Shown here piece after piece: positions 41,916 to 58,735 of a stretch of 64,000 nt of DNA; the first letter of the stretch is position 1; each line of letters opens with the position of its first letter. Source of the stretch: Pseudomonas sp. FP2309 (lineage in GTDB: Bacteria; Pseudomonadota; Gammaproteobacteria; Pseudomonadales; Pseudomonadaceae); the NCBI RefSeq assembly GCF_030687575.1, contig NZ_CP117439.1, positions 4,269,501 through 4,333,500 on the forward strand, given 5' to 3'. The notes beneath the pieces were generated by a model that was not told where the DNA came from, searched no databases, and saw nothing but the letters and a program-made list of their open reading frames with translations. The position numbers and the translations under genes are program-made.

Positions 41916-42185
41916 ATGAAAGCTCTCGTAGTTATGGCCCTCAGCAGCTTGTGCGCCACCGCCGCCCTGGCCGACGAAGCCCCGACCGAGCTGGCCGGCC
42001 AGAACGCACCGATTGTGGAGGACTACACCTATAGCACTCACTTGGACGTCGCCAAAGTACTGTCCATGAGCACCGTACCCGAAGTATGCGAAGTTGTACC
42101 GGTGAAGATGGAATATGAAGATTCCCAGGGCCAACGCCACATTCTTAATTATCACGTCATGGGCAATGGTTGTTCTAACGGGTAA
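41916..42185 (+). CDS. DUF2790 small secreted protein
   Basis: The 89-residue precursor starts MKALVVMALSSLCATAALADEA, a signal peptide cleaved near ALA-DE. The mature part reads YTYSTHLDVAKVLSMSTVPEVCEVVPVKM and ends YHVMGNGCSNG, the pattern of the Pseudomonas DUF2790 family with two conserved Cys. The ATG at 41916 is preceded by AAGGTAAGTAAAG. Function is unknown; members of this family are often induced by copper or stress, which I cannot test here. It stands alone. Confidence 0.8.
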   Translation: MKALVVMALSSLCATAALADEAPTELAGQNAPIVEDYTYSTHLDVAKVLSMSTVPEVCEVVPVKMEYEDSQGQRHILNYHVMGNGCSNG

Positions 42186-42260
42186 TAACGTCCCCGTGCA
42201 AGTTGCCCCTGAAGTTGTTCGCCGCAAGAAATCGTTCTTGCGGCAAAGTCCCAGTCTCTG

Positions 42261-43619
42261 TTATCGGCCCTGCCTCGCGGCTTTCATAAAATGCCGAGCA
42301 GGCTTGCCGGTGGTTCGATCATCCGGCAACCCCCAGTACACCAGACCTGCGCATAACAGGCAGAACGGCGCCAACGCCAACATGCCCAGGTACGTATTGC
42401 CGCTTACATCGTTGATGTAGCCCACCAGCAACGGCGCCACCATCCCACTGAGCTGCCCCACCGTGTTCACGGCGGCAATCCCCCCGGCGATAGCAATGCC
42501 GGTGAATGCCTGCTGGGGAATCGTCCAGAAAATCGGGATGGCAATGAACACACCGGCCGTGGCCAGCACCAGGAACGAGGTCAGCAGCACGTAGTGCTCG
42601 TTGAAGTAGCACGCGGCGAAATAGCCCACGCCACCCACAGACATGCACAGCCACAGGTACTTGCGCCGCTCACCGGTGGCGTCGGAACGCCGCGTGACGA
42701 TGATCATGCCGATGGCCGCGACCAGATAAGGCAGCGCGGTCAGGAACCCCACCGTTACCTGGCTTTTTATGCCCGAGGCGCTGATCAGGTGAGGCATCCA
42801 GAAATTGAGCCCGTACCCGGTGAGCTTGATCATGAAATAGATCACTGACAGCACGGCCACCTGCCGCGTAAAGATCACCTTGAGCAACGACGCCTGGATC
42901 GGCCTGAACTGCTTCTTATCGTTATCCAGGTTGCGCTGGAGCAAGTCCTTTTCATCCTGACTCAGCCACCGCGCCGACTGAATATCCCGGTCGAGCCGGA
43001 ACAGCACCACCACCCCGAGGACACTGCACGGCAGCCCGGACAGGATGAACAACCAATGCCAGCCCGCCAGCCCGAGAAAACCGTTCATGTACTCGAGGAT
43101 GATGCCCGACACCGGCGCACCCAGCACACCGGCCAGTGGGATCGACAGAAACCAGATGCCATTCATGCTTGCCAGGTTCTTTTTCGGAAACCAGCAGGCC
43201 AGATAGAACAACAGCGCCGGACCAAACCCGGCCTCCATCACGCCGATCAGAAAGCGCAGGAAGTACAAGGTGTATTCGTTGTAGGCAAACACCAGCGCCG
43301 CCGTCGCCAAGCCCCACGACACCATGATGCGACAGATCCAGCTGGGCGCCCCATAGCGCTTGAGCCCGTAACTGCTCGGCACTTCGAACAGCACATACCC
43401 AAAGAAAAAAATGCTCGCGGCGAACCCGTACGCCGCATCCGACAGGCCCAGGTCCGCCTGCATCTGGGTCTTGGCGAAGCTGATATTGATCCGGTCAAAA
43501 TAGGAAAACAGAAAACACACAATTGTCAGCGGCAAAATCCGCCAGGCGATGCGTCGGTAGAGCAACAGTTCATCGATCCCGGCAGGGTTCAGGGCAGTGC
43601 TTGGCGTTGCAGTCGTCAT
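42261..43619 (-). CDS. MFS transporter, anion:cation symporter family
   Basis: The 452-residue protein has about 12 membrane helices. Near the N-terminus, LLLYRRIAWRILPLTIVCFL and FSYFDRINISFAKTQMQADLGLS near 38-60 are typical of the ACS group (phthalate, tartrate, galactonate, tricarballylate carriers). FEVPSSYGLKRYGAPSWICRIM near 78-99 is the signature loop. It lies downstream of the aconitase-like gene on the same strand (202-base gap), so the substrate is probably a di- or tricarboxylate handled by that enzyme. The specific substrate is not readable. Confidence 0.85.
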   Translation of the reverse strand: MTTATPSTALNPAGIDELLLYRRIAWRILPLTIVCFLFSYFDRINISFAKTQMQADLGLSDAAYGFAASIFFFGYVLFEVPSSYGLKRYGAPSWICRIMVSWGLATAALVFAYNEYTLYFLRFLIGVMEAGFGPALLFYLACWFPKKNLASMNGIWFLSIPLAGVLGAPVSGIILEYMNGFLGLAGWHWLFILSGLPCSVLGVVVLFRLDRDIQSARWLSQDEKDLLQRNLDNDKKQFRPIQASLLKVIFTRQVAVLSVIYFMIKLTGYGLNFWMPHLISASGIKSQVTVGFLTALPYLVAAIGMIIVTRRSDATGERRKYLWLCMSVGGVGYFAACYFNEHYVLLTSFLVLATAGVFIAIPIFWTIPQQAFTGIAIAGGIAAVNTVGQLSGMVAPLLVGYINDVSGNTYLGMLALAPFCLLCAGLVYWGLPDDRTTGKPARHFMKAARQGR

Positions 43620-43821
43620 GGTATGTCTCCGTCATTATTGTTGTTGGAGAGTGTTAATTTCCGGCCACGCACGGCAGCCGGCTGGAACGTCAGCAAGCCG
43701 GTCACGGACAGCTCAGCTCACCCACACGATAAGGGCCGCAACGCGAAGCGGCTCGGCCACACCGCCATTGCAAAGCATGGCTTCGTGCCGGTCACAGAGA
43801 TCGGCCGTCGAAAAATCCATC

Positions 43822-45783
43822 TCAACGCACCTCCTCTGTGCACGCTAGCCGGCGTAATTCGTCAAAACTGCCGAGACGCCCAAGGAAGGCACTGGCCGCC
43901 ACGGTGTAGGGGTTGGCAAGCCACACCTGGCCTGGCCCGGAACGACCAGGAAAATTGCGGTTGATCGCGCTCACGGTCACCTGGTCTGCACGCGTGGAAG
44001 ACCCCGGACCGCAGTTCGCGCAAGCGCCGCAGCCGGGCATGATCATCTGGACGCCCAGGCGCTCGAAGGTGGTCACGTAGCCCTGCTCGACGCAGTAGTC
44101 GCGCACCGCCAACGTGCCATATTGCAGGAAGAGCCGGGTGCGCTCATGCAGCGACAATCCATGTGCCAGGCCCCAGGCCAGGACCTCGTGGTAATAGTCA
44201 AAGTCCTCGCGCTTGCCCGCGGTACAGGAGCCGCCGTAGGCAATGTCGACGAATACAGGCCTCTCGAGCGTGGCAAGGGCTACGGCGTTTCCCGGATCGC
44301 CGGGCGCAGCGACCATCGGCGTCAGGCGCGAGCAGTCGATGCCCAGCCGCACTTTGTATTCGGCCTGCGCATCACTGAATAACCACGGCTCCAGCTCAAT
44401 GGCCACGCCGCGGCGTTCAAGAATGAAATCGACGGTTTTCTGGTCGGGCTCCACGATGCCAGTGAACCCGCCCAGCTCCGCCACCATATTGGTCAAGGTG
44501 GCTCGCTCATCAATGGACATGGCGCGCACCGCTTCGCCGGTGTATTCGAACACTGCGCCAATCCCATGGCCCTGACGGATGAACGTCGAGCCCAGCAACT
44601 CGAGCACCACGTCCTTGGCGGTTACCCCAGGCGCAAGTCGGCCATTGAGCTCGACACGGATAACCTCGGGCATCCGACAGCGGATGTAACCGGTGGCCCA
44701 GCTGTTGGCGATGTCCGTGGCGCCGGCCCCAAAGGCCAGGCAGCCCAGCGCACCGGAGTGCGGGGAATGCGAGTCGGTGCCCACGACGACTTGGCCGGGC
44801 AGCGCGTACTGCTCGGTCATCAACGCGTGGCAGATGCCCTCCGAGCCAGGGCCGTCACGCAATGCACCGTGCTCGATCACCGGGTAGCGCCGCACAAAGG
44901 CGTCATGGGCGCTGGCCAACCCACCTACCGCAGCGAGCAGGTTGTCACGCACATGGGCCGCACTCTGGCTGGCCAGGATAAGGTGGTCTTGAAAGGCAAT
45001 AATTTCATCGGGACGCACCAGCGCCACGTCGTCACCAAAGGCGTCGTGCATCAGGTGCGCACACATCCCGGTGAAGTAATCGTGGCTGAACCGCCAGTCC
45101 GCCGAGAGAAACACGCCATCACCTTTGACCACCGCGTTATCAGGCTCCAGACGCCGGCGCTCGATGATCTTTTCGATCAGCGTCAGGGGCCGGCCGCTCG
45201 GGAGGCGGTTGAACACTTTGGCATCACGCGGGGGCAACCGGGTCTTGCTGAACGGCAACAGACCGCCTGCGCGGATCACCGCCTGCGTCACCGCATCGCG
45301 CCCGATGAGGAACTCGTCTATATCGATGGCTTCACCGGCGCGGATACGCTCGATCAAGCCGAAGTCAGTCGAGGTATAAATCCCGATGTTGTCGCAGTTC
45401 TGGCGATAGATGCGCTCGAAACTCTCGGCAATGATCAACCGGATACCGGCGGACTTTTCCGCCAGCGGGCTGGACTCGCGCGAAGAACCCTTGCCATAGC
45501 GCTTGCCCGCCACCGTGACCGTGAACCCGCCCGCCTGAACCGCGAAGTTGCCGATCGGGCAGACGCCTTCGGCCTTGAACCCCACATAGGGGAACTCACC
45601 CAGCCGCGCGTCGTAGGTCATCATGACCACCACGGGCGTGATTTCGTCGGTGGAAATATCATCACGCAGCGGCAGCGCATCGGCCAGCGTGATGTCGCGC
45701 CCCTGTAACTGGGCACGAACAGCTTCGCTGTGGCGGGATAAAAATAGGACGCGTCCTTCAAAGCGCAGGGGTGTTTTATTCAT
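43822..45783 (-). CDS. Aconitase-family hydratase with swivel domain first
   Basis: The domain order of this 653-residue protein is reversed compared with aconitases. The LeuD-like swivel domain comes first (about 1-180), with GKRYGKGSSRESSPLAEKSAG near 93-113 and the conserved Arg/Ser. The LeuC-like Fe-S domain follows (about 200-640), with VVVGTDSHSPHSGALGCLAFGAG near 340 and the cluster Cys pair in IMPGCGACANCGPGSS near 584. All cluster Cys appear present. It probably hydrates or isomerises a tricarboxylate or alkylmalate. Together with the MFS and divergent LysR genes it forms a catabolic cluster; the substrate is unknown. Confidence 0.85.
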   Translation of the reverse strand: MNKTPLRFEGRVLFLSRHSEAVRAQLQGRDITLADALPLRDDISTDEITPVVVMMTYDARLGEFPYVGFKAEGVCPIGNFAVQAGGFTVTVAGKRYGKGSSRESSPLAEKSAGIRLIIAESFERIYRQNCDNIGIYTSTDFGLIERIRAGEAIDIDEFLIGRDAVTQAVIRAGGLLPFSKTRLPPRDAKVFNRLPSGRPLTLIEKIIERRRLEPDNAVVKGDGVFLSADWRFSHDYFTGMCAHLMHDAFGDDVALVRPDEIIAFQDHLILASQSAAHVRDNLLAAVGGLASAHDAFVRRYPVIEHGALRDGPGSEGICHALMTEQYALPGQVVVGTDSHSPHSGALGCLAFGAGATDIANSWATGYIRCRMPEVIRVELNGRLAPGVTAKDVVLELLGSTFIRQGHGIGAVFEYTGEAVRAMSIDERATLTNMVAELGGFTGIVEPDQKTVDFILERRGVAIELEPWLFSDAQAEYKVRLGIDCSRLTPMVAAPGDPGNAVALATLERPVFVDIAYGGSCTAGKREDFDYYHEVLAWGLAHGLSLHERTRLFLQYGTLAVRDYCVEQGYVTTFERLGVQMIMPGCGACANCGPGSSTRADQVTVSAINRNFPGRSGPGQVWLANPYTVAASAFLGRLGSFDELRRLACTEEVR

Positions 45784-45877
45784 AGGCCCTCTCCTGTCTG
45801 AGAGCGATACTAACCAGCGACCTGTTTACCGGTAGTGATCATTGCTCAGCACACCCATCACCAAATAGCGGTGCTCC

Positions 45878-46801
45878 ATGCAATCAATCTGGCGATTTGA
45901 CCCCACGTCCCTGAAGCTCTTCATTGCTGCCTGCGAACTGGGCAGCATCGCCCGCGCCGCCGACAAGGAAAACATGGTGGCCTCGGCGGTGAGCAAACGC
46001 ATTGCCGAACTCGAAGACGCCGTGGGCACTGCGTTGTTCTATCGCCATAAAAAAGGCATCACCGCCACGCCCGCCGGCCAGTGCCTGCTGAAGCACGCCA
46101 CACGGGTGGTCGATGATTTGTTGCAGATGAGCGCGCAACTGTCCGACTTCGCCCAGGGACAACGCGGACATATAAGGATCGGCGCGAATCGCTCCAGCAT
46201 CATCCAGTTCCTGCCCCATGACCTTCGCGCCTTCCGCACGGCGCACCCGGCTATCGAAATAGAGCTTGAGGAACAAACCAGCGAAGAAGCCGTGGCGTCG
46301 GTGCTCGGCAATCGAAATGACGTGGGCATCGGCACCGGCCTGCTCGACGCCGCAGCGCAAGGCCTGGAAGTGCATGATTACCACGCGGATGAATTGGTGC
46401 TGGTGGTGCCGATGGGCCACCCACTGTCGCGGCACCGCGTTATCGCCTTTTGCGACAGCCTGTCGTTCAGCCATATCGCGCTGCACAAGGACAGCCCGCT
46501 GTATCGCACGCTGGAGCAGGCCGCCCGCAACGGCAGCCAGGCGATCAACTACGAGGTGCATGTTAAAAGCTTCGACGCGGTGTGCCGGATGGTCCAGGCC
46601 AACCTGGGCATCGCCGTCATCCCGAGAAAAGCGGTCAGCCACGCCGATGGGCCCGGTCTGGTCAGCATCCGCCTGAGTGACAACTGGGCGTCCCGGCGTT
46701 TTCACCTCATCAGCCGGCCGACGCCCTACCAGTCGGCGGCGTGCCGAAGCCTGCTGCAGTTTCTGCGCGCTCAGTTACCCGGCCAGGGGCACGCCGATTG
46801 A
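45878..46801 (+). CDS. LysR-type regulator of the aconitase/MFS cluster
   Basis: The 307-residue protein has an N-terminal winged helix-turn-helix, LKLFIAACELGSIARAADKENMVASAVSKRIAELEDAVGT near residues 12-51, then FYRHKKGITATPAG near 54. The C-terminal LysR substrate domain includes RIGANRSSIIQFLP near 97 and a VVPMGHPLS segment near 180. It is divergent from the aconitase-like gene with a 94-base gap, the classic arrangement for a regulator of the neighbouring operon. The ligand is presumably the substrate or product of that enzyme. Confidence 0.9.
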   Translation: MQSIWRFDPTSLKLFIAACELGSIARAADKENMVASAVSKRIAELEDAVGTALFYRHKKGITATPAGQCLLKHATRVVDDLLQMSAQLSDFAQGQRGHIRIGANRSSIIQFLPHDLRAFRTAHPAIEIELEEQTSEEAVASVLGNRNDVGIGTGLLDAAAQGLEVHDYHADELVLVVPMGHPLSRHRVIAFCDSLSFSHIALHKDSPLYRTLEQAARNGSQAINYEVHVKSFDAVCRMVQANLGIAVIPRKAVSHADGPGLVSIRLSDNWASRRFHLISRPTPYQSAACRSLLQFLRAQLPGQGHAD

Positions 46802-47237
46802 TCGATTGGCAGCGCAGGCACCGGGGCCGGGCAAAGGCCTGCTGACATTCGGCCACCGTCCGTCAAAAAATTCCTGCCCGCCAACCCCTGTAAACCCTCG
46901 TTGCGGCTCAAAAAGCCGTGATTTTGTGTGCGCGCCGAGACCATCCGCCGCAACACAGCGGCGATTTTTTCCCTATAATGCGCGGGTAAATCGGGCCTGC
47001 AATATCCCTTTACACAGGGACGAAGAGCCAGACCTGAGGCCTCCGCTGGAGCAAACACGCACCGCTCCGCACCTCAAGCCTCACGCAGAGTACCCGTAAC
47101 CCCATTGCGTTTAATGCCTGCGCTAGCTGCTGCAACAAACGATTCCTTAAGATCCACCGCGGCCCTGGGCCGTGTGAACACCCAACCATCCGGTTTCACA
47201 CGGGCACCTTGAGCCCTCACGCAGGAGACGACACGTC
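46802..47237 (+). other. nrdB leader with promoter and hairpin
   Basis: This 436-base gap has a good -10 box TATAAT at 46974-46979 without a good -35. It also has a long leader containing an inverted repeat: CCGTGTGAA (47170-47178) and TTCACACGG (47195-47203), with 16 bases between. No ORF of note and no nrdA are present. The hairpin lies about 35 bases before the nrdB ATG and could affect translation. I saw no clear NrdR box. Confidence 0.6.
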
Positions 47238-48488
47238 ATGCTGAGCTGGGACGAATTCGACAAAGAAGAAGAAGGCGAAGTAGCCGCTAAAGGCGCCAAC
47301 GCCGGCCACGCCACCGAAGCCAACATGGACCGCCTCGACGGTGCCGGCGCCGCTGCCGCCATTGAAGCCCGCGCCGTCACCGCCAACGACTCGGCCGCCA
47401 TCGTGCGCGCCAAGGCCGCCCTGGACAAACTCGACGTTGCCGAAGGCCTCGCCGAACTCGAAGGCGCCTCCGCCCGTGTCGCCGTCGACGAAAAGCGCAT
47501 GATCAACTGCCGCGCCGACCTCAACCAGCTCGTGCCCTTCAAGTACGACTGGGCCTGGCAGAAGTACCTCGACGGCTGCGCCAACCACTGGATGCCGCAA
47601 GAGGTCAACATGACCGCCGACATCGCCCTGTGGAAAAACCCCGAAGGCCTGACCGACGACGAACGCCGCATCGTCATGCGCAACCTGGGCTTCTTCTCCA
47701 CCGCCGATTCCCTGGTCGCCAACAACCTCGTGCTGGCCGTGTACCGCCTGATCACCAACCCGGAGTGCCGCCAGTACATCCTGCGCCAGGCCTTCGAAGA
47801 AGCGATCCACACCCACGCCTACCAGTACTGCATCGAATCGCTGGCCATGGATGAAGGCGAGATCTTCAACATGTACCACGAGATCCCATCGGTGGCTAAA
47901 AAGGCCGCCTGGGGCCTCAAATACACCCGCTCGATCTCCGATCCGAAGTTCGAAACCGGCACCGTCGACACCGACAAAGAGTTGCTGCGCAACCTGGTCG
48001 CCTACTACTGCGTACTGGAAGGCATCTTCTTCTATTGCGGCTTTACCCAGATCCTCTCCATGGGCCGCCGCAACAAAATGACCGGCGTGGCCGAACAGTT
48101 CCAATACATCCTGCGCGATGAGTCGATGCACCTGAACTTCGGTATCGATGTAATCAACCAGATCAAAATCGAAAACCCGCACTTGTGGGATGCCGAGATG
48201 AAAGAAGAAGCGACCCAGATGATTCTGCAGGGCACGCAGCTGGAGATTGAATACGCGCGCGATACCATGCCTCGCGGTGTACTCGGCATGAATGCGGCGA
48301 TGATGGAGGATTATCTGAAGTTCATCGCGAATCGTCGGTTGTCGCAGATCGGGTTGAAGGAAGAGTACCCAGGGACGACTAACCCGTTCCCGTGGATGAG
48401 CGAGATTATGGATTTGAAGAAAGAGAAGAATTTCTTTGAGACTCGGGTGATTGAGTATCAGACGGGTGGGGCGTTGAGCTGGGATTGA
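47238..48488 (+). CDS. nrdB: Ribonucleotide reductase class Ia, beta subunit NrdB
   Basis: NrdB carries the di-iron tyrosyl radical cofactor for NrdA. The 416-residue product has an Ala-rich N-terminal extension (about 1-85) seen in pseudomonads. The ferritin-like core follows, with [17 protein letters not shown] near 118, [20 protein letters not shown] near 146, the iron-ligand EExxH in [22 protein letters not shown] near 187-208 and [13 protein letters not shown] near 288. A good GGAG precedes the ATG. The partner gene nrdA is not adjacent within the window. Confidence 0.95.
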
Positions 48489-48510: not shown

Positions 48511-48543
48511 AAAAAGCCCTGACATATTTCAGGGCTTTTTTTG
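48511..48543 (+). terminator. Terminator after nrdB
   Basis: AAAAAGCCCT (48511-48520) pairs with AGGGCTTTTT (48531-48540), followed by a T-run. It stands at the left edge of the accessory island and may serve both nrdB and the opposing ATPase gene. Confidence 0.92.
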
Positions 48544-48560
48544 TAAAATCCAATTGCCAG

Positions 48561-50168
48561 TCAGTCTTTGACTAACTTAGCCTTATCAACTTTCCCCATC
48601 AAATAAGAAGTAAGACTTAAAATATTAAGACAATCCACATCTGAGAATATGGCAGGAACGACTGAGTCAATGGGAGCGTGATTCATCGGATTCCTAAATC
48701 CACTTACCAATCCTCTTGACATCGCTTGTTGCCCCTCTTGGAGATTTCGGCCCGTGGCTGTCGAAATGTCACTTACATGTAAACAGGGATTATTGGTAAA
48801 TGCTCGCCCCACTAGATCATTGGCATCTTCAGTCCGCCCAGTCAGAGTACGAATATATTCCAAATAAATTTTTACAGCCTGATCAGCTGCCTGCCCATAC
48901 TGACGATTTTCATAATAAGACCTAACGCGCTCACGTAAATTATCATTTAAGTAACGCCAATGCAACTGAGGATACTCTGGAACTATTTTATGTAACGCCT
49001 TTATTATCGGGGTAAACTTTTCAAGTGCATCTTCTGCACTGAGCATATTTAAAATATCTGAAGTTTGCTCCTTGACATCGTCAGGCATCGTGGACATCCA
49101 AAACTCAGTATCTATACCAGTAGCCTGATGAAAATCAGTATCCTTTTTTTTCTTTCTCTGCTCTCTCCAACTAGCATTCACTTTAGAAATCATTTCTGAC
49201 AAAAACTCACGAAACTCTTTCATCTCGTTATTATCCCAATTAATAGACTGCCTATTAGTTGAAATAACATCTTCCGACAAAAGATCAATAAAGTCTGCCT
49301 GAATCCAACCAGTTAAATATTGAAAAAAGTGACTAGACGTACTATTTGAAAAAAACTCGGGCATATTCACGAGCTTACCACGAGAAAAAAGCGATACACC
49401 TCTGAGTCCAGAATTAGGTTTTATTGGTGTAGCCGCAGTGTAAAAAACCCCTTTAACCTTACCAGAAAACTTACTACCCTTAGGCACTAGCAACTCAACA
49501 TCCCACTCAAACTCTTTAGTAAAATTTGAATACCGACGAGCGTTATCAACGACAAGACTCAGCCCGTCCGTATTTGTCAAAACTATCTCAAAACTGTCGT
49601 CTACAATAAAAATCTTTGAAAGGCTATCAGCTAATCCTTGCACATCAAAAGAACTCTGCCTTTTCAACTCAGATAGCTTAATTATTGTTCCATCTGGCTT
49701 ATCAACGGGAACATTGACCAACTCTGCTTGTGGATTATAGCTCCCCTCCGCATCCATCAACTCATCCCAATTAAGAACAAATCTATTCCTCAGCCCCCCA
49801 CTAACAGTATCTACGGTAATGATCTTTGACAGACCGAATAAAGCTAATTTGCCCAAACCTTTTTTGCCTGTAGGCAGACGCTCAAACTTAGTTGTTGGTT
49901 TATCACCATCTTCTTTCCGACGGTTTCGACCAATAACTAAAAATTTGTTTTGAATATCATCCGAAGACATTCCATGACCGCTATCCAAGACCTGAATGGA
50001 AATAGGCTTACCATTACTTTCATGAAATTTTATTTCAACTCGAGAAGCATCAGCATCATAAGCATTCGAAATCAACTCGGCCAAGGCAGGAGGCAAAGTT
50101 GAATACATTCGAACCCCAAGGTGCTCAATCGTCCGAGGATCGAATTTCATCTCGTATTGGCCAGCCAT
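48561..50168 (-). CDS. GHKL ATPase with C-terminal HEPN-like domain
   Basis: This 535-residue protein has an N-terminal GHKL (MORC/Hsp90/MutL-type) ATPase: N-box PALAELISNAYDADASRVEI near residues 27-46, G1 motif LDSGHGMSSDDI near 61-72 and G2 motif PTGKKGLGKLALFGL near 98-112. A middle domain and a helical linker (about 330-440) follow. The C-terminus (about 450-520) reads LVSGFRNPMNHAPIDS, with R-N-P-x-x-H, the RX4H signature of HEPN or Ymh/Abi-C-like domains, where the His is often catalytic in RNases. It lies 14 bases after a C5 DNA methyltransferase gene on the same strand, so the two form an operon. The region is AT-rich. A defence or restriction-like role is an inference. Confidence 0.75.
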   Translation of the reverse strand: MAGQYEMKFDPRTIEHLGVRMYSTLPPALAELISNAYDADASRVEIKFHESNGKPISIQVLDSGHGMSSDDIQNKFLVIGRNRRKEDGDKPTTKFERLPTGKKGLGKLALFGLSKIITVDTVSGGLRNRFVLNWDELMDAEGSYNPQAELVNVPVDKPDGTIIKLSELKRQSSFDVQGLADSLSKIFIVDDSFEIVLTNTDGLSLVVDNARRYSNFTKEFEWDVELLVPKGSKFSGKVKGVFYTAATPIKPNSGLRGVSLFSRGKLVNMPEFFSNSTSSHFFQYLTGWIQADFIDLLSEDVISTNRQSINWDNNEMKEFREFLSEMISKVNASWREQRKKKKDTDFHQATGIDTEFWMSTMPDDVKEQTSDILNMLSAEDALEKFTPIIKALHKIVPEYPQLHWRYLNDNLRERVRSYYENRQYGQAADQAVKIYLEYIRTLTGRTEDANDLVGRAFTNNPCLHVSDISTATGRNLQEGQQAMSRGLVSGFRNPMNHAPIDSVVPAIFSDVDCLNILSLTSYLMGKVDKAKLVKD

Positions 50169-50182
50169 ATAAATCTCGTCCC

Positions 50183-51226
50183 TTAGATAAATGAGGTTAA
50201 ATGCTTTTTAAACTGTAACGCATGTCGTTTAATAAATTCGGGAGGCAGAGCATTACCTATCATCAAAGCTACAGAATCTTTGCCTTTTTCAAGAGAAAAC
50301 TTGTAACCCCTAGGAAAAGTTTGTAAAAGCGCCGCTTCTCTCAGGGTAATTGCTCGGTCTTGCTCAGGATGAATGAATCGCCCTTTAGAAGGACTGATAC
50401 ATCCCCCGGTAATTGTTGGGGCTACCATTTTCCAAGCCATACGCCCGTAGACATCCAAGTATCCACCAGGTTTTCTGATATGACAGGGCAACCAGTATTC
50501 GATGGGTAATTGAGACCGCGATCCTCCATCTTTAGGAACCATACTAATCAAATCATTTACTTTTTTCGTACGAATAGTTGGTAAGTCATGCAGATAATCC
50601 CCTGACACCCCTGGAGAAGCTAAACTTCCGATAGCATCCCAGACTGTAACGCCTTTTTTACTCTCAGGGGTCTCACCAATTGCTCCATAAAGGGACGCTT
50701 GAAGAATCATTCTTTTACGACGCTGCGGCACACCAAAAGATGATGCATCTTTTACTTGAACAGTATTATCATCAACATAATATCCAAGATCTTTCAGCAT
50801 AGCCTTCACATCATCGATTCTGGTATCTTTTGCCAACCCAGGCACATTTTCCATCATAATAGTTTTTGGCTTCATGCATTTAACAAACTTCATGAATTCA
50901 AATACAAGATCATTACGCTCATCAATAACGGAACTGGCTTTATTTCGAGTTCGATGAGAGGAAAACCCCTGACATGGAGGACACCCTGCCAAAAGATCAA
51001 GCTCCCCTGGAACAATCCCTAAATCAGCCATTACATCTAATGGGCTTAACCCCTTTATATCACGTTCATAGAGCCTAACGCGCCTATGATTCATTATATA
51101 AGAACTTGCGGCCACAGGATTAAACTCTACACCTGCAATAACCTTAAAACCTGCCTTTTTCAAACCGACGGTTAGGCCACCTGCTCCACAAAACAAATCT
51201 ATGGCAATTAACTTATTTGACGGCAT
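50183..51226 (-). CDS. DNA (cytosine-5) methyltransferase
   Basis: It transfers a methyl group from SAM to cytosine in a specific DNA sequence. The 347-residue protein has all core motifs in order: I IDLFCGAGGLTVGLKKAGF near 8-26, IV LLAGCPPCQGFS near 79-90 with the catalytic Cys, VI MMENVPGL near 120, VIII VPQRRKRMIL near 165, and IX-X AITLREAALLQTFPRGY then IGNALPPEF near 327. The target-recognition region lies at about 185-290. It is AT-rich relative to the surrounding core genes and is followed at once by the GHKL-HEPN gene. No typical restriction endonuclease gene lies beside it; an HNH gene is present 2.4 kb away beyond an IS. Confidence 0.92.
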   Translation of the reverse strand: MPSNKLIAIDLFCGAGGLTVGLKKAGFKVIAGVEFNPVAASSYIMNHRRVRLYERDIKGLSPLDVMADLGIVPGELDLLAGCPPCQGFSSHRTRNKASSVIDERNDLVFEFMKFVKCMKPKTIMMENVPGLAKDTRIDDVKAMLKDLGYYVDDNTVQVKDASSFGVPQRRKRMILQASLYGAIGETPESKKGVTVWDAIGSLASPGVSGDYLHDLPTIRTKKVNDLISMVPKDGGSRSQLPIEYWLPCHIRKPGGYLDVYGRMAWKMVAPTITGGCISPSKGRFIHPEQDRAITLREAALLQTFPRGYKFSLEKGKDSVALMIGNALPPEFIKRHALQFKKHLTSFI

Positions 51227-51470
51227 ACGGCCTCAACACAATAAAATACCATCTGAATTACGTGAGTGCTCAATCTCGCTCACGTTCCCCCATCAGCATC
51301 CCAGCTAAAAACTCAGATTTGACGCCTACCTAAACTATCCAAGACTCTGGCGCATTGTCTAGCAGCAAAAAAGTTGTGTAAATGAAATTATCTAAAAAAA
51401 GCAAGCGAAGTGACACATAACAAAGCAACTGACCTGCTTGACGCCCTGTATGTAACTCCCTACCCTTCCA

Positions 51471-51657
51471 GTGCGCCTAAGAAACGCATCACACAGCGGA
51501 CCGACCGCACCCGACATTAGCGGTTTTTTTGTGCCTGCGGTTGCCCCGTGGGCATCGAAAATCTCTGTTATGCCGGGAGTGGGCTAATACAAGACCCGAA
51601 AGGGGAATATGTCCGGCCCTCTGTGTGGGGTTTCTTAACTCCCGGCACCCAGCCCTA
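51471..51657. other. Structured inverted-repeat region (possible phage-type antisense RNA)
   Basis: TGCCGGGAGT (51571-51580) pairs perfectly with ACTCCCGGCA (51638-51647). In addition, CCTAAGAAACGCATCACACAG (51476-51496) is partly complementary to CTGTGTGGGGTTTCTTA (51620-51636). On the minus strand the core reads TTAAGAAACC-CCACACAGAGG, followed by CCCCTTTCGGG. This resembles, from memory, the c4-type antisense RNAs of P1/P4-like elements that control antirepressors. It lies in a 577-base gap (51227-51803) between the methyltransferase and the transposase. An 80-codon minus-strand ORF here (51489-51731) is judged spurious. Confidence 0.45.
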
Positions 51658-52874
51658 AGGATAGTCTGAAGTAGGCCGCTATTTTTCGACTGCTGAGCCA
51701 TAGGCGCTTTCAAAAAACGGCAGCCGTTCAAAACCGATCACGTCTGCCGCCTATTCCATCCATTTTTTCCGCTGAACGCTCCTCGCAGCAGCTATTTCCC
51801 TCATTACGGACGCACCTCTCCTGCGCTGGAGAGCAAATATCGACGCGCCATCCAAAGGTTCGACAGGGCGAACAGCGTCACCATCTGAGAAGTGTTTTTC
51901 ACCAAGCCTCGGAAACGCACTTTCGTATAACCAAACTGACGCTTGATCACTCGAAATGGATGCTCAACCTTGGCGCGAACCTGGGCCTTGGCTTTCTCGA
52001 TCTTGCGCATCGCTTTGTACAGCGCGCTGCGTTTACCGTGTTTTTTGTAGGTACTGCGCCGGGCTGCGATCTGCCAGATGACGTGGCGTCCCGCATGCTC
52101 TTCGCGCTTCTCGACACCGGTATAGCCTGCATCGGCGCAGACCACGTTCTCAGCACCGTGTAGCAGTTTGTCGACTTGGGTTATGTCCGCGACGTTGGCC
52201 GCAGTGATCACCACGCTGTGCACCAGCCCTGACTCATCGTCGACACCAATGTGAGCTTTGGCACCGAAGTAATACTGGTTACCTTTCTTGGTTTGATGCA
52301 TCTCAGGGTCGCGTTTGCCGTCCTTGTTCTTGGTCGAACTGGGCGCATGAATCAGCGTGGCATCGACGATGGTGCCTTGTCGCAGCGACAAGCCACGGTC
52401 GCCCAGATAGCCATTGATCACGCCGAGAATACCAGCGGCCAACTCGTGCTTTTCCAGCAGGCGACGGAAGTTGAGGATGGTAGTTTCATCTGGGATCCGC
52501 TCCAGGCTCAGACCTGAAAACTGGCGCAAGATCGTCGTCTCGTACAGCGCTTCTTCCATCGCAGGATCGCTGTAACCGAACCAGTTCTGCATGAGATGAA
52601 CCCGCAGCATCGCCATCAAAGGATAGGCCGGACGCCCCCCTTCGCCCGTCGGGTAATGAGGTTCGATCAGGGCAATCAAACCCTTCCAGGGTACGACACG
52701 ATCCATCTCGATCAGGAACAATTCCTTGCGGGTCTGCTTGCGCTTACCGGCGTACTCGGCATCGGCGAAGGTCATTTGCTTCATTGAAAAGCTCGGCGAT
52801 TGGTGTCCGGAGATTTTGCCAAATCAGGAAGTCTTTTTCAGGATTTCCCTAAGAAAGCTGACATCACACAGAGG
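51618..52874 (-). mobile_element. IS5-type insertion sequence (ends uncertain)
   Basis: The transposase gene is clear, but the ends are not. The only inverted match I see is CCTCTGTGTG (51618-51627) against CACACAGAGG (52865-52874), giving a 1257-base element, a plausible size. No target duplication is evident, and the left match also belongs to the structured region, so the boundaries could be wrong. Comparison with ISfinder would settle them. Confidence 0.5.
51804..52784 (-). CDS. IS5-family transposase
   Basis: This 326-residue DDE transposase of the IS5 group starts MKQMTFADAEYAGKRKQTRK. It shows the DDE pattern: the first Asp in RQGTIVDATLIHAPSST near 138-154, the second in NVVCADAGYTGVEKREEHAG near 216, and Glu in RAKVEHPFRVIKRQFGYTK near 265-283 (E-x-x-x-R-x-x-K). 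Length is complete and the frame is intact, so the element may be active. It is inserted between the methyltransferase/ATPase unit and the BRO gene. Confidence 0.93.
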   Translation of the reverse strand: MKQMTFADAEYAGKRKQTRKELFLIEMDRVVPWKGLIALIEPHYPTGEGGRPAYPLMAMLRVHLMQNWFGYSDPAMEEALYETTILRQFSGLSLERIPDETTILNFRRLLEKHELAAGILGVINGYLGDRGLSLRQGTIVDATLIHAPSSTKNKDGKRDPEMHQTKKGNQYYFGAKAHIGVDDESGLVHSVVITAANVADITQVDKLLHGAENVVCADAGYTGVEKREEHAGRHVIWQIAARRSTYKKHGKRSALYKAMRKIEKAKAQVRAKVEHPFRVIKRQFGYTKVRFRGLVKNTSQMVTLFALSNLWMARRYLLSSAGEVRP

Positions 52875-52968
52875 TAATGGAAAATGCCTAAAATTTTCAC
52901 CTTCCTCGCGAAGGTTCTCTACTGCGTAAAAACAGCCATTCAAGCACCTTCAGCCTCGGAGGTGTGTC

Positions 52969-53499
52969 ATGCATGATCCCTCCGTGCCTACGGTCTTCAC
53001 CCGTCAAAACCTCCCTTTGCACACCCTCCTCCTGGAAAACCAACCCTGGTTCTGCGCTCGCGACTTTGGGCGTTTAATGGGTTGGTACCTGGACGAGCGA
53101 ACAACCCGCAAACTCGATGATGACCAACGAAGAACCCTAAAACTACTATTCCACGGCCAACCCGAAGAAATGCTGATGATCAGCGAGTCCGGTGCCTACG
53201 CGTTACTGGTCTATCACTACACGCCGGGCAATCGCCTACTCCGCAGTTGGCTCACGCACGAAGTCGTGCCGACGTTGAGGGACGAGCGCCAACCCCGGAC
53301 GGTGGAGCGACCATTGTTGAGCATGTTGAATTGGCCAGAAATGTCGCTAAACCTGCTGCATTGGCAGGATGAAGGCTGGATACGTCTTCGGGACATGCCG
53401 TATTTATTGGAGAATCGTACTTATCGGAAAGAGTCAGCAAGGATTTCGTGGTGGCGAAAGCTCATTCAATCTTTCCGAACGAAGCAGCGAGTTTGCTGA
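52969..53499 (+). CDS. BRO-N family phage antirepressor-like protein
   Basis: This 176-residue protein has a BRO-N domain: LLLENQPWFCARDFGRLMGW near residues 18-37, then RKLDDDQRRTL near 43 and MLMISESGAYALLVYHYTPGN near 64-84. RLLRSWLTHEVVPTLRDE near 85-102 closes the domain. Such proteins are phage or prophage antirepressors. The C-terminal part (LHWQDEGWIRLRDMPYLLE) is unassigned. The ATG is preceded by CGGAGGTGTGTC. The TAAGAAA...CACACAGAGG words upstream (52849-52874) match those in the structured region left of the IS. Confidence 0.85.
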   Translation: MHDPSVPTVFTRQNLPLHTLLLENQPWFCARDFGRLMGWYLDERTTRKLDDDQRRTLKLLFHGQPEEMLMISESGAYALLVYHYTPGNRLLRSWLTHEVVPTLRDERQPRTVERPLLSMLNWPEMSLNLLHWQDEGWIRLRDMPYLLENRTYRKESARISWWRKLIQSFRTKQRVC

Positions 53500-53570
53500 C
53501 GTAGACGACCGCAAAATCCTACCGTCGCGTAGGAAATTTCGTAGACGCACTAATGGCTACTCAGTATCGT

Positions 53571-53591
53571 CCGAGGGTTTTCTACCCTCGG
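53571..53591 (+). promoter_or_regulatory. Hairpin just before the HNH gene
   Basis: CCGAGGG (53571-53577) pairs with CCCTCGG (53585-53591) around loop TTTTCTA. It ends 7 bases before the ATG at 53599, leaving no visible ribosome binding site. It could be a terminator of the BRO gene or a block on HNH translation. Confidence 0.6.
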
Positions 53592-53598
53592 CGGCTGT

Positions 53599-54312
53599 AT
53601 GGATACGAAAAAAGCGACTACTGGCTGGAGCGACAACGAGCTTGAAGCATCGGTAGAGGCCTATCTGAAAATGTGGACGCTTGAAAAAAGCGGACAAACC
53701 TTTAAGAAGTCAGACGAAAACCGACTGCTCCGCGAGGGACCGCTACACCAGCGTAGCGTCTCGTCCATTGAATATCGCATGCAGAATATTTCAGCGGTGT
53801 TTGAACAACTGGGCTTGCAGCGCATCACCGGGTATATGCCTGCAAAAAATATCGGTGCAGGGGTGAGTGAGCGGATTCGCAAGGTGTTGGCTGCGAAACT
53901 CGACCTCCCCGCACAAATCGCTACCTCTACAGTAGTTAAGCCAAGCCCTGCAGAGCGCCCCGCTGCTCCGAAGCCTGCTATTCAAATCGAGCCAAACGGC
54001 ATTCTTAATCCTCGGCAACTATTTACCATCAGTATTTCCTTCGCCCGCGCACTTCATGTGCGAAAGCAGGTTCAGCAGCTAGCGGGCGGGATTTGCGAAG
54101 GTTGTGATAAACCTGCGCCGTTCGTGGGAGAGGACGGCCGGCCATTTCTTGAAGTACATCACGTCAAGCACCTGGCCCAGAAGGGTTCGGATCGCATCAC
54201 CAATGCTGTAGCCTTGTGCCCCAATTGCCATCAGCGTTGTCACCGGTCGAGTGATCGGGAGGCTTTCACCGAAGGGCTTTACGCCAAAATCGGAAGATTG
54301 GCACGGGAGTAG
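53599..54312 (+). CDS. HNH endonuclease
   Basis: The 237-residue protein has a C-terminal HNH domain with zinc-binding CEGCDKP near residue 173, LEVHHVKHLAQKGSDRITNAVALCPNCHQRCHR near 190-222, giving H-N-H and CxxC pairs. The N-terminal domain (about 1-95) has MDTKKATTGWSDNELEASVE and SVSSIEYRMQNISAVFEQLGL near 55-75, a pattern shared with McrA-like restriction proteins. McrA-type enzymes cut modified DNA, so linkage to a C5 methyltransferase is notable. An IS and a BRO gene separate them, so a functional link is only suggested. Confidence 0.85.
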   Translation: MDTKKATTGWSDNELEASVEAYLKMWTLEKSGQTFKKSDENRLLREGPLHQRSVSSIEYRMQNISAVFEQLGLQRITGYMPAKNIGAGVSERIRKVLAAKLDLPAQIATSTVVKPSPAERPAAPKPAIQIEPNGILNPRQLFTISISFARALHVRKQVQQLAGGICEGCDKPAPFVGEDGRPFLEVHHVKHLAQKGSDRITNAVALCPNCHQRCHRSSDREAFTEGLYAKIGRLARE

Positions 54313-54371: not shown

Positions 54372-55031
54372 GTGACCCAAGACATGCTCGAAGCCGGCCC
54401 CGTAGACGCCAAAGTACTCTCCGTCTTTGACTTCGACGGCACCCTCACCCACCACGACAGTTTCGTGCCCTTCCTCAAGTTTGCCTTTGGCACCGGTGAG
54501 TTCTATGGCCGGATGGTCAAGCTCGCGGTGCCGGGGCTGCGCTTTTTGGTGCGGCAGATCAGCCGGGATGAGTTGAAGGCGCAGTTGATCCGCACCTTTA
54601 TGACCGGGGTGGAGAAGGCGTGGGTGCAGCAGAAGGCCGAGGAGTATTGCCAGCGCAACTGGGCGCGGTTGATGCGTCCGGCGGGGGTGTTGTCGGTGGA
54701 GCAGGAGTTGGGCTCGGGGGCGGTGGTGACGCTGTGTTCGGCGTCGCCGGCGTTGGTGTTGCAGCCGTTTGCCGATCGGCTGGGGATCAAGTTGATCGGG
54801 ACTGAGCTTGAGGTGGTCGACGGGGTGCTGACCGGCAAGCTCACCGGCAATAATTGCCGCTGTGAGAACAAGGTGCTGCGGCTTGAGGCGGTGTATGGCG
54901 ACCTCGGGGAGTATCGGCTGCGGGCCTGGGGCGATACGCGTGGCGATCGGGAGTTGCTGGCGGCGGCGCAGGATGCGCATTTTCGGCATTTTCATGCCAA
55001 GAAGAAAAAGCGCGCTCGGTTGCAGCGCTGA
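54372..55031 (+). CDS. HAD-IB family phosphatase
   Basis: The 219-residue protein has the HAD nucleophile motif VFDFDGTLTHHDSFVPFL near residues 18-35 (DxDGT), motif II CSASP near 122, and motif III/IV AWGDTRGDRELLAAA near 186-200. The cap and length fit the HAD-IB group (phosphoserine phosphatase-like hydrolases). Its substrate is not readable. The start is GTG at 54372 (VTQDMLEAG) with weak upstream signals; ATG 54384 is an alternative. It marks the return to core-type sequence after the island. Confidence 0.85.
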   Translation: MTQDMLEAGPVDAKVLSVFDFDGTLTHHDSFVPFLKFAFGTGEFYGRMVKLAVPGLRFLVRQISRDELKAQLIRTFMTGVEKAWVQQKAEEYCQRNWARLMRPAGVLSVEQELGSGAVVTLCSASPALVLQPFADRLGIKLIGTELEVVDGVLTGKLTGNNCRCENKVLRLEAVYGDLGEYRLRAWGDTRGDRELLAAAQDAHFRHFHAKKKKRARLQR

Positions 55032-55196
55032 TGCCGGTGATGGGGTTGGCCGTCAGACCGGGTCGCCCCCTTGGCTGCCTCGCTGGGGCTTGAGAGCTCC
55101 CACGGATTGATGTGAGCGCAGGCTTGGCCAGATTCGGCGCCGTAGCCGCTGATATTTGCGTAGTATCGCGCTATTCCACTCACGGACCCGAGCCCC

Positions 55197-56147
55197 ATGA
55201 AATTCGACACGGCCTACAGCCTGAGTCTCGATGACAAGCTGTCGATCTACGACGTGCGAGACCTGAATTTCGACGAAACCGCCGCTTACGATTCGGAACA
55301 GGACAGTTTCCTGTGCCCTGACGATGCCTGCCGCGCGGCGTTCGATGCGCGCAATGCGTTGAGCACCTTCAACGCGAAAAACGTCAACTATGTGCGTACA
55401 CCGCACTTCAAGAACAAGACCAGTACCCTGCACATCGAGGGTTGTCGCTACGCCACCACGCACAAAGCCGCTGCCGGCGAACACGACGACGAGCGCGAGG
55501 ACCACTTCCCGTCGGAATTTGTGTTGGTACGCCGTACCTACGAGCGCAAAACGTCGATTGCCGGGGTGGACGCCGTTATTAGCCCACAAGGTCCAGCGAA
55601 AATTCTGTCAGGCAGCCCCAGTGCCTCGGTGGCCTTCAGCGATAGCCCCCCGGATAAAACCAGCGTGTTTGCTCACCCGGTGGAATGCTACGTCTCCAAT
55701 ATCGACGACAAGGACAGGCTCAAGCGCATGCCGCTGAAGATCGGCGAGCACACGGCAACCTATTGGGCGTTTTTCAAGAAAATCGAATACCTGCAAGACA
55801 ACAAGGGCCTGATCTACTGGGGCAGAATCAAGGCGATCAAGGACTACACCAGCAGCTTTCGCATCGACTTCGAAAAGAAGGTATGGCTCGACAAGAAGCC
55901 CTACTCGGTCAACGTCTACCTGAGCAAAAAACTCATTGAGAACTACCGCAAGCGCACGGCGTTCCTGGAGCAGATCAAGGCCGCGGTGGACAGCGAACGC
56001 GCGTTGTATTGCTTCTTCTACGGTGTGACGCCTGAACTGAAACAGGTACCCAGCAAGAAGCATCCCGAGCAGACGTTCGGGGTGTTCAGCGCGAATATCG
56101 AGAACCTGGATCATCTGATTATTCGAGAGGCGCCGGGGGTGGAGTGA
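55197..56147 (+). CDS. Hypothetical protein with possible zinc cluster
   Basis: The 316-residue protein is not recognised as a named family. Near the N-terminus FLCPDDACRAAF (about 38-49), RTPHFKN (about 67) and LHIEGCRY (about 78) give a C-x4-C...H...H-x3-C pattern, like the zinc clusters that precede nuclease domains in CoiA-like proteins. The middle has IGEHTATYWAFFKKIEYLQ near 182 and the C-terminus PSKKHPEQTFGVFSANIENLDH near 285, without clear catalytic motifs. It has its own upstream gap of 165 bases. Function is unknown. Confidence 0.6.
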   Translation: MKFDTAYSLSLDDKLSIYDVRDLNFDETAAYDSEQDSFLCPDDACRAAFDARNALSTFNAKNVNYVRTPHFKNKTSTLHIEGCRYATTHKAAAGEHDDEREDHFPSEFVLVRRTYERKTSIAGVDAVISPQGPAKILSGSPSASVAFSDSPPDKTSVFAHPVECYVSNIDDKDRLKRMPLKIGEHTATYWAFFKKIEYLQDNKGLIYWGRIKAIKDYTSSFRIDFEKKVWLDKKPYSVNVYLSKKLIENYRKRTAFLEQIKAAVDSERALYCFFYGVTPELKQVPSKKHPEQTFGVFSANIENLDHLIIREAPGVE

Positions 56148-56199
56148 CGGGTGGCTGAAAAGCCCTCAAAAAAATCCAGTTGATGAGCGGTCAAAACAA

Positions 56200-56215
56200 C
56201 TGTACAAAAACACAG
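56200..56215. promoter_or_regulatory. LexA-type SOS box upstream of XRE gene
   Basis: CTGTACAAAAACACAG matches CTG-N10-CAG with an AT-rich centre. A TATAGT word follows at once (56216-56221) and could be the -10 box, so LexA binding would block the promoter. It lies about 40 bases upstream of the ATG at 56254. Confidence 0.7.
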
Positions 56216-56253
56216 TATAGTTTGTCCTCCCCGTCGAACCCTGGAGAAACCCC

Positions 56254-56634
56254 ATGTCCTCTCTGGCAATGAGCTCTTTCGTAGAACAGCAGATCGTCCT
56301 GCACCAATTCACCGCCAAACACAGCGTACAGGCCCGGGTCATGCTGGGTTGGAGCCAGGAAGACCTGGCGCGTCAGGCCGGCGTGGCTGTCACGTTGGTA
56401 CGGCAGTTTGAAGGCCAGGGCGATGTCGATGATCAAACCCGTTTGAGCCTGGCATTTCGGTTGGAAGCGGAAGGTCTGGTGTTTTTCCCAGGGTTCGCGC
56501 CGGGGTGGGGCATGAGCGCTCGCCGATTCAGCAGCACCGCCAGCGAGCCCGTTACACAGGGGGTTATCTCTCGGCTGATGGGCTCGACAGCGCTCTCCAT
56601 TGAGTCATCAGGCTCGCTACCCAATGGTGCGTAG
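56254..56634 (+). CDS. XRE-family regulator, possibly SOS-controlled
   Basis: The 126-residue protein has an XRE-type helix-turn-helix, ARVMLGWSQEDLARQAGVAVTLVRQFEGQ near residues 26-54, followed by DDQTRLSLAFRLEAEGLVFFPG. The start MSSLAMSSF has GGAG about 8 bases upstream. The last about 35 residues look non-conserved, and this 3-prime end overlaps, on the other strand, the frame of a degraded amidase-like gene. A LexA-type box lies upstream. The target is unknown. Confidence 0.75.
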   Translation: MSSLAMSSFVEQQIVLHQFTAKHSVQARVMLGWSQEDLARQAGVAVTLVRQFEGQGDVDDQTRLSLAFRLEAEGLVFFPGFAPGWGMSARRFSSTASEPVTQGVISRLMGSTALSIESSGSLPNGA

Positions 56635-57452
56635 CGTCCGGGTCCGCGCCCTCAACCAGCGGTTCAGCCAGGGCTGGCACCTCGATGGTGGCGCCGGCGC
56701 CTGCGGTACTCAGGATGCGGATGTTAGAGGCCGTGCCCCGCGTGCGTCAGGCGACAGGTAACTCTGTATCCCTGCACGAGCGCCGCAAGCGCGTCCTTGG
56801 ACCACCGCGCGCCGTAGAACCATAGCGTCGTGCCATCCCCCAATGGCTCACCCAGCCTTGGGTAACCGTGCCAGCAAGCCGAATGGAACGCCGCACTCCG
56901 GCTGTCCGATACCAGGGCATCCAGTTGATGCTCATTGAGCAAGTCATCGATTTCATTACGGGCGTGCAGGTTGAACTGCAGGGTTTCATCAAGCGAGCGC
57001 GCAAAGACCGGCACCAGATGTGCCCCGGCTTGCCGCAGGACGTTTAGCGCACGAATAAAGCACGCACGGTGCTCAATGGAGCCGAGATCATATCGGTCGG
57101 CAAAGCCCACACGCTTGCCAGCCAATACCTTGGCGGCAGTCAGGGTGCTGTTGTTCTGTACCAGGGGTACCTCCACCATCACCGGCCCCCGAGGCTCGAT
57201 CCCGCCTGAAGCAATGAGCGACAACGCAGGGTCACGCACAGGCTTCAGCGAGAGCGCCGGTGCGTCATAGCCGGGTATGGGCGTACCTTTCTCGAGTAGA
57301 AGTCGAGGATGGGGCGCGTTCCCAAAATCAATGCTGGACGGGCTTGCAGAGCGCGAGGTGACGAGCGATGAGCAGGCTGGATCGCGTGCTGGCCCCCATT
57401 CCGCCGGGCATACCAACCCCAATGTCCAATGTGTAGTGCATTTTCCGGCCAT
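56564..57452 (-). pseudogene. Amidase-like remnant, probably frameshifted
   Basis: An open frame 56724-57452 encodes GGIEPRGPVMVEVP near residue 84, VLAGKRVGFADRYDLGSIEHRA near 106-127 and LDALVSDSRSAAFHSA near 183. These recall the C-terminal half of amidase-signature proteins, but the catalytic Ser-cis-Ser-Lys region is absent and the N-terminus looks out of frame. After the stop, another minus-strand frame continues without break to 56564 (IRILSTAGAGATIEVPALAE and onward), suggesting a frameshift near 56730. It is probably a decaying gene. The overlap with the XRE ORF end is part of the same decay. This could also be a real, unknown short protein. Confidence 0.45.
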
Positions 57453-57559
57453 CAGGACCGCCCCTGAACAGTAATTTTCCGGGGATCATCGCACCCTTCA
57501 CTGACGCCTGTCGCAGCCCTGAAACAGCTTGAAAACTCCTTTTTCCGACACCTCGGCCT

Positions 57560-58612: not shown

Positions 58613-58640
58613 TGCAAAGTGACTCCTACGATCCGCAGAC

Positions 58641-58712: not shown

Positions 58713-58735
58713 CCTTCAAGAGCCGAACGCCACCC

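Follow-up and report, generated by a model that had tools for sequence, protein, structure and literature searches.

A C5 methyltransferase and a GHKL ATPase-HEPN fusion form a putative restriction-modification-like unit in Pseudomonas sp. FP2309

ATPases of the MORC and paraMORC types are known from restriction-modification (R-M) systems (Iyer et al., 2008; PMC2292703, available part). The accessible part of a later survey recognises the Ymh domain as a HEPN domain, reports its fusion to paraMORC ATPases in R-M neighbourhoods, and treats the fusion as an analogue of PrrC and RloC with a predicted RNase activity (Anantharaman et al., 2013; PMC3710099). In this work we analysed a fusion of this kind in a stretch of 64,000 nucleotides from Pseudomonas sp. 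FP2309 (contig NZ_CP117439.1, positions 4,269,501 to 4,333,500), hereafter called the window, where it forms, with the gene of a C5 cytosine DNA methyltransferase, a pair at 48561-51226. The initial annotation of this DNA could not name the pairing; the fusion of a Ymh HEPN domain to a paraMORC ATPase next to R-M genes was in fact already in print. What the present sequence comparisons add is the kinship of the ATPase half to restriction enzymes, the steady presence of a C5 methyltransferase partner and the usual absence of a recognised adjacent restriction endonuclease (REase). We propose that the two genes constitute an R-M-like unit in which the protein in the R position probably answers unmethylated DNA with RNA cleavage. 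Within the open-licence literature we found no experimental study of a GHKL-HEPN fusion, no paper on TIGR02391, and none that brings HEPN together with GHKL, methyltransferase and restriction; HEPN and GHKL occur together in that survey and in a paper on sacsin.

Several described systems resemble this pair in part. Its architecture is identical to that of the Ymh-paraMORC fusion, as far as the available text of the survey describes it (PMC3710099). With the BbrUII/HgiDII R-M systems it shares a GHKL-plus module (residues 5-378), a two-gene layout with a C5 methyltransferase, and methyltransferases that belong to one clade; it differs from them in having a HEPN domain at the position of the C-terminal nuclease half and in scoring below the family cut-off. 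The Shedu type I-D/paraMORC3 protein VcSduA, which protects against phages and loses its activity when E27 of the ATPase or K557 of the nuclease is changed, is similar in that a GHKL ATPase drives a C-terminal nuclease effector, but its effector is a DUF4263 DNA nuclease, and the accessible part of that report mentions no methyltransferase for VcSduA (PMC12137116). According to the part of the survey available, PrrC is accompanied by a full type I R-M system (PMC3710099); next to the effector of the window there is only the methyltransferase, the genome not having been searched for hsd genes. The PrrC and RloC anticodon nucleases also join an ATPase to a HEPN RNase, and PrrC is linked to DNA modification; their ATPase is however of the ABC type, while that of the window is GHKL.

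The two genes and their domains

The methyltransferase gene (50183-51226, minus strand) encodes 347 amino acids that match PF00145 (E 4e-50, residues 9-339; Pfam) and TIGR00675 (E 1.2e-42; NCBIfam). Its translation shows DLFCGAGG, PPCQ, ENV, QRRKR and GNALPP, so that the core motifs announced by the initial annotation are indeed present, and we predict that it is the self-marking M gene. The second gene (48561-50168, minus strand) encodes a GHKL ATPase-HEPN fusion of 535 amino acids, which we predict to be the effector taking the R position, with matches to PF13589, PF09509 and TIGR02391 and a partial match to NF050001. It begins, as first annotated, 14 bases downstream of the methyltransferase gene; in this gap (50169-50182) the minus strand carries GGGACGAG, which we read as a ribosome-site-like stretch, and translational coupling of the two genes across it is likely. 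A promoter scan gave scores no better than those of shuffles.

The ATPase domain of the effector matches PF13589 (HATPase_c_3) over residues 25-137 (E 9.5e-19; Pfam). When diverse relatives are aligned (68 rows), E31, D62, G64, G66, G104, G106 and K107 are present in every row and N35 in 67, which bears out the description of the GHKL motifs as intact. The C-terminal part, for which a HEPN-like domain had been suggested together with a profile check, matches the TIGR02391/Ymh HEPN family over residues 407-528 (48585-48950, minus strand; E 1.7e-33, 115.4 bits against a cut-off of 39.45; NCBIfam) and PF09509 (Hypoth_Ymh) over residues 408-525 (E 1.7e-18, 67.1 bits against a cut-off of 25). It contains the R-x4-H motif R492-H497 (RNPMNH, within FRNPMNH; 48678-48695, minus strand), which is conserved in the alignment, H497 in 68 of 68 rows and R492 in 66. 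A search of a protein database, with scoring limited to the 8000 candidates that had the most words in common, returned 2295 relatives at E <= 1e-5, and all 120 of the closest proteins listed have R-x4-H within their last 140 residues. From the profiles and the motif together, we predict that the C-terminal domain is a HEPN domain. The same region matches the PADLOC models Aga_HEPN (E 2.2e-13, residues 334-531) and PD-Lambda-3_B (E 6.3e-13, residues 415-531). The Aga_HEPN and PD-Lambda-3_B systems use other sensors. When the PDB was searched with a profile of alignment A2, the best 60 of 161 rows were all GHKL proteins. In two of the aligned relatives (L066 and L068; L and G numbers denote loci and genomes), which have a lysine in the motif, the spacing from K to H is one residue longer, and these may be inactive or altered effectors.

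These domains bear on the possibility that the protein acts on DNA, the HEPN domain merely aiding dimerisation or binding and the cut being made by a concealed nuclease site or by a nuclease of the host. Such an activity would recall VcSduA, a relative combining GHKL and nuclease that, in the available part of its description, appears to restrict phage directly in cells that stay viable (PMC12137116), and there is a below-cut-off match to MYG1_exonuc at residues 313-357 of the effector (E 0.11; Pfam). However, no nuclease profile of Pfam or NCBIfam exceeds its own cut-off in the effector, and the PADLOC REase_II models match its ATPase half (residues 1-146, 1.2e-27; residues 4-340, 3.4e-24). 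In addition, 66 of the 68 relatives keep the R-x4-H motif, for which a domain of solely structural function would have no need. We consider a DNA-acting protein of this kind very improbable. SduA_C (DUF4263) gave no match in the effector at E up to 1 (Pfam).

An ATPase module of restriction-enzyme type and shared methyltransferases

Of the NCBIfam profiles, NF050001 ('BbrUII/HgiDII family restriction enzyme') best matches the N-terminal part of the effector. The GHKL domain and the module that follows it (residues 5-378; 49035-50156, minus strand) align with positions 1-400 of the 659 positions of this profile (E 5.6e-63), and the match stops at residue 378, ahead of the start of TIGR02391 at residue 407. 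Four other HEPN-type proteins (L016, L037, L059 and L081) have similarly partial matches that end at profile positions 396-421, whereas 13 of 14 nuclease-type relatives match NF050001 in one stretch to positions 635-659, the fourteenth (L003) doing so in two stretches. Nuclease hints below the Pfam cut-offs were seen in nuclease-type relatives, namely SduA_C in L003 and L102, HSDR_N_2 in L097 and NucS_C in L120. Since the HEPN-type matches end near position 400 and the nuclease-type matches reach 635-659, the HEPN domain occupies the position of the nuclease half; and because the ATPase half is a BbrUII/HgiDII-type module, the HEPN protein more likely replaces a restriction enzyme than lacks one.

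The two types of effector also have methyltransferase partners of the same kind. Among relatives without the HEPN domain, a methyltransferase is adjacent within the available stretch in 20 of 29 rows. A direct search of Escherichia coli DNA gave methyltransferase pieces only, and these led to prophage pairs. The methyltransferases of two E. coli prophages (L100 and L101, which from their annotated genes we read as P2-like and lambdoid, respectively) are 61% and 63% identical to that of the window, the latter figure being for a 286-amino-acid piece of a protein annotated in two pieces, and one from Pantoea (L116, a plasmid region with phage-like genes) is 58% identical. The proteins encoded next to these three methyltransferases match NF050001 nearly end to end. 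HEPN-partnered methyltransferases are at similar distances, those of Pseudomonas edaphica and Atlantibacter being 63% and 61% identical to that of the window. Phage PhiR44_1, whose gene names point to a P2-like phage, has a gene called 'paraMORC3' next to a Dcm gene. On one plasmid (L120, 1922-7152) a HaeIII-type restriction gene and its own methyltransferase directly adjoin a BbrUII-type pair.

For the tree analysis, 17 loci were dropped as near copies, as pieces or for want of a usable match, leaving 95 pairs; long branches or near copies were then removed from each careful tree, 10 of 95 for the ATPase-module tree (85 rows), 21 of 95 for the rooted module tree (74 rows) and 12 of 75 for the methyltransferase tree (63 rows). 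'Nuclease-type' means in these trees that the profile match ends before the HEPN part, and in the rooted tree 11 of the 13 rows so called are confirmed by NF050001, L098 and L099 not being so. In the ATPase-module tree the 66 HEPN rows form one clade (support 100/95), with a single change of type in 99% of 200 bootstraps. When the tree is rooted on distant GHKL proteins (L110-L112), 58 HEPN rows and 5 nuclease rows are set together at 99/98, and the HEPN type (clade support 79/80, 82% of 200 bootstraps) is nested in nuclease-type diversity. The ATPase modules of the two types are of shared ancestry by sequence, and derivation of the HEPN type from the nuclease type is favoured. We hold this direction as favoured only, because approximately unbiased tests did not reject either the nuclease rows as one clade in the rooted module tree (p 0.089) or one clade of nuclease-type partners in the methyltransferase tree (p 0.168, although the log-likelihoods differed by 329), and because each of the three careful trees was flagged for long branches meeting. 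One of the outgroup proteins L110-L112 has a weak SduA_C match.

The methyltransferases have a different history. Their partner type changes 5 times in a quick tree of 75 rows and 4 times in the careful tree of 63 rows, at least 3 of the changes being forced by starred branches, and a single change was seen in 0% of 200 bootstraps. The clade of the window methyltransferase (21 rows, 99/96) contains 18 HEPN-partnered and 3 nuclease-partnered members, so that one clade serves both effector types. The recognition region of the window methyltransferase is 59-74% identical to those of the clade members compared, nuclease-partnered ones included, against 35-42% for the methyltransferases beside L102, L106 and L118; no characterised member of this clade was found. 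There is, on the same kind of comparison, a second methyltransferase class common to both effector types, as the recognition regions of four HEPN-partnered enzymes (L073, L074, L077 and L080) are 52-63% identical to those of the L102, L106 and L118 methyltransferases and 36-39% identical to those of the window and of L100. The HgiDII methyltransferase produces 5-methylcytosine (5mC) in the target GTCGAC, as stated in the accessible part of its description (PMC5867850), and a target resembling GTCGAC can reasonably be guessed for the enzymes of L073, L074, L077 and L080.

Conservation of the pairing and its genomic setting

A survey of conserved pairing had been suggested at the outset. A contig profile scan with a 28-relative alignment, which retained the best 80 of its 95 confirmed matches, gave 79 loci, and at 64 of them the effector is full-length (at least 518 amino acids). 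A C5 methyltransferase gene is directly adjacent in 53 of these 64, with gaps of -89 to 113 bases; it lies upstream on the same strand in 42 cases, downstream on the same strand in 8 and downstream on the opposite strand in 3. At ten further full-length loci a C5 methyltransferase lies no more than 8 kb away, among them L032, where it is divergent from the effector and 505 bases away, and L031 and L050, where it is about 7.0 and 7.7 kb off, apparently on one contig with the effector; the last of the 64 (L070) is cut by a contig edge. The distant methyltransferase of L050 also adjoins a GHKL open reading frame (ORF). Pair hosts belong to Pseudomonadota, Bacteroidota, Campylobacterota, Bacillota, Actinomycetota and candidate phyla and include two archaea, and the pairing is thus conserved across phyla; with the HEPN profile match, two of the three checks named at the outset as possible refutations were thereby passed. 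Since the window methyltransferase is the only PF00145 gene of the genome (5.66 Mb), its adjacency to the effector is not a chance of abundance; with the 53 directly paired relatives, this led us to reject the reading of the two genes as chance neighbours.

So steady a partnership would also be expected of a selfish addiction module, with the HEPN protein as poison and the methyltransferase as antidote; the unit would be kept because its loss kills the cell, and phage defence would be a side effect. For as many as 63 of the 64 full-length effectors a C5 methyltransferase is found at a distance of up to 8 kb, a broken effector stands beside an intact methyltransferase in L038 and L064, and the setting of insertion sequences (IS), plasmids and prophages is a mobile one. 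Against this, broken cases are very few and their asymmetry is not significant, and the 64th effector (L070) comes from a genome in which no PF00145 gene was found, which may be an assembly gap. Type II R-M systems in general act as both addiction and defence, which also counts against a purely selfish role, and we regard such a role as decidedly unlikely.

The type is sparsely distributed: among 199 genomes of the genus three (G000, G019 and G796) have the full-length HEPN form, and among 398 genomes of a phylum sample one does, the genome studied here. Nine loci are on viral contigs: three have an intact HEPN-type effector, all with an adjacent methyltransferase, one has a split copy, and five are without the HEPN part. 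In these five the match ends at profile position 391-419 and methyltransferase ORFs lie alongside in every case; in one (L156) the ATPase is the sole domain in a Pfam scan. Both genes of the pair are split into pieces in L061 (Neisseria gonorrhoeae) and in the similar viral-contig locus L154.

The initial annotation had taken AT-rich composition and phage and IS neighbours as signs of recent acquisition. The pair has a GC content of 40.7%, against 60.3% in 42000-48488 and 59.4% in 54372-62000, and is itself single-copy in the genome. The IS neighbour is confirmed: the gene at 51804-52784 encodes a DDE transposase (profile match) and is present in five near-identical copies in the genome; the phage neighbour comes down to one BRO-N gene. 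The gene at 47238-48488 is, we presume, nrdB. We compared 30 loci of the genus, with flanks of up to 1.5 kb, and excluded our own, leaving 29 relatives. None of the 29 has a match to 48561-51226 beside nrdB; in three (L123, L124 and L125) nrdB continues to window position ~54135-54141, and in seven the BRO stretch (52954 onward) lies beside nrdB without the pair. In G019, of the same genus, the pair is at 4.45 Mb, distant from the nrdB copy at 5.01 Mb. Recent acquisition of the pair is supported by the composition, the sites without the pair and the IS copies. The segment ~48542-54134 next to nrdB, missing as a whole in three of the 29 relatives, is a variable spot that looks like an integration hotspot, and the gene at 47238-48488 has a second copy, 96% identical, at G000:C1:2674662-2675912, two copies being found also in some other genomes of the genus.

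The first description of the locus as free of a nearby restriction nuclease holds for the genes directly beside the pair; the nearest nuclease gene, 2.4 kb away, is an HNH gene (53599-54312, plus strand) that matches the PADLOC models PDC-S36 in its N-terminal half (3.8e-25) and mREase_IV in its C-terminal half (5.1e-22). We rejected this gene as the missing restriction enzyme, as the same-genus BRO gene occurs beside nrdB without the pair at the seven loci mentioned above, in three of which (L126, L132 and L139) the nrdB-side BRO match extends into the HNH gene. It is likely to be an independent defence or mobile gene at the same spot.

Neighbouring genes and the proposed mode of action

Neighbours of the relatives were scanned as nearest ORFs of at least 110 amino acids, one per side (116 of 117 scanned), and families are given among those listed, 25 of 105 for Pfam and 25 of 326 for PADLOC; with this scope, single REases could be hidden among the neighbours. 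The most frequent neighbour is Vsr, the nearest gene in 20 of the 64 full-length loci. Vsr mends deaminated 5mC, and its frequency fits methyltransferases that truly place 5mC on host DNA. The next-largest cluster consists of six ATPase-like genes, and no other family is common. In L045, L069 and L078 an AAA_21/OLD-like ATPase gene (scanned for L078) lies between the methyltransferase and the GHKL-HEPN gene, with Vsr behind, possibly a four-gene variant.

Several observations weigh against the reading of the GHKL-HEPN protein as the enzyme of an R-M-like unit. The effector module scores 213.5 bits, under the 550-bit cut-off of the BbrUII equivalog NF050001, which is itself passed by just 3 of the 14 nuclease-type proteins scanned (L102, L106 and L118). 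The HEPN arginine is replaced by K in L066 and L068 of the 68-row alignment, and a sequence search of the PDB with the HEPN region gave no match. No PF00145 gene was found in the L070 genome, whose contig ends just upstream of the effector, inside an HpaII-like gene. The effectors of L042 and L043 are 76% identical and their methyltransferases 37%, indicating that the methyltransferase was swapped. Such exchange is hard to square with an effector obliged to recognise the same DNA target, and here the model is at its weakest: swapped methyltransferases with a steady ATPase suggest either rapid adjustment of the DNA target by the effector or recognition of a feature wider than the precise motif. 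Lastly, the 116 neighbours include HNH_2 (5), RE_HpaII (2), ResIII (2), Methylase_S (3) and N6_N4_Mtase (4), and a plausible type II REase lies beside or between the genes in 4 of the 64 loci: in L071 an RE_HpaII gene (9.7e-110) separates methyltransferase and effector, in L070 an HpaII gene adjoins the effector, and in L049 and L054 there is a weakly BsaWI-like gene. A helper role next to other R-M genes fits some loci.

A rival reading is that of a backup guard, a second line like PrrC and RloC that a working R-M system keeps silent and that acts once this system has been overcome, as the available text of Anantharaman et al. (2013; PMC3710099) proposes for the Ymh-paraMORC fusion. The HpaII and BsaWI-like genes of the four loci just named would suit it, as would HNH_2 in 5 of the 116 neighbours and the pieces of type I/III R-M systems in a few of them. 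Nevertheless, among the 116 neighbours scanned, where single REases could be hidden, no third gene is generally conserved, the largest neighbour clusters being those of Vsr (20 loci) and of the ATPase (6), and the ATPase module is itself of restriction-enzyme type. We therefore think that a backup guard is rather unlikely.

The reading that we prefer remains an R-M-like unit with an RNase in the R position, and the following sequence of events can be proposed for it, in line with the roles in self-marking, DNA sensing and action on RNA suggested by the initial annotation, which we find plausible. The methyltransferase would methylate a short target and so protect the host chromosome, while the GHKL protein would form an ATP-closing dimeric clamp on DNA, a DNA-reading clamp having been modelled for VcSduA (PMC12137116). 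On an unmethylated target the clamp would close and bring two HEPN domains together, and the dimerised domains would cleave cellular RNA, either tRNA or mRNA. This cleavage would stop growth ahead of the spread of a phage or plasmid, and the unit would combine restriction-modification-like sensing with an abortive-infection-like output. Extended to the whole family, it may represent a widespread R-M class in which a DNA nuclease has been exchanged for an RNase, methylation gates RNA cutting and methyltransferases are traded between the two versions, a generalisation for which we see the case as evenly balanced.

Classical R-M systems destroy foreign DNA and abortive infection sacrifices the cell; if our proposal is true, both would be joined in two genes, and 'restriction' would here be a DNA-triggered translational shutdown. 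It would also give a testable function to proteins that, in the search listing, are mostly named just 'TIGR02391 family protein'. The methyltransferases that are about 60% identical and stand beside nuclease-type effectors in some loci and HEPN-type effectors in others provide natural matched pairs, which may reveal how a GHKL clamp reads methylation and signals to different effectors, a question that bears on MutL and on the eukaryotic MORC ATPases.

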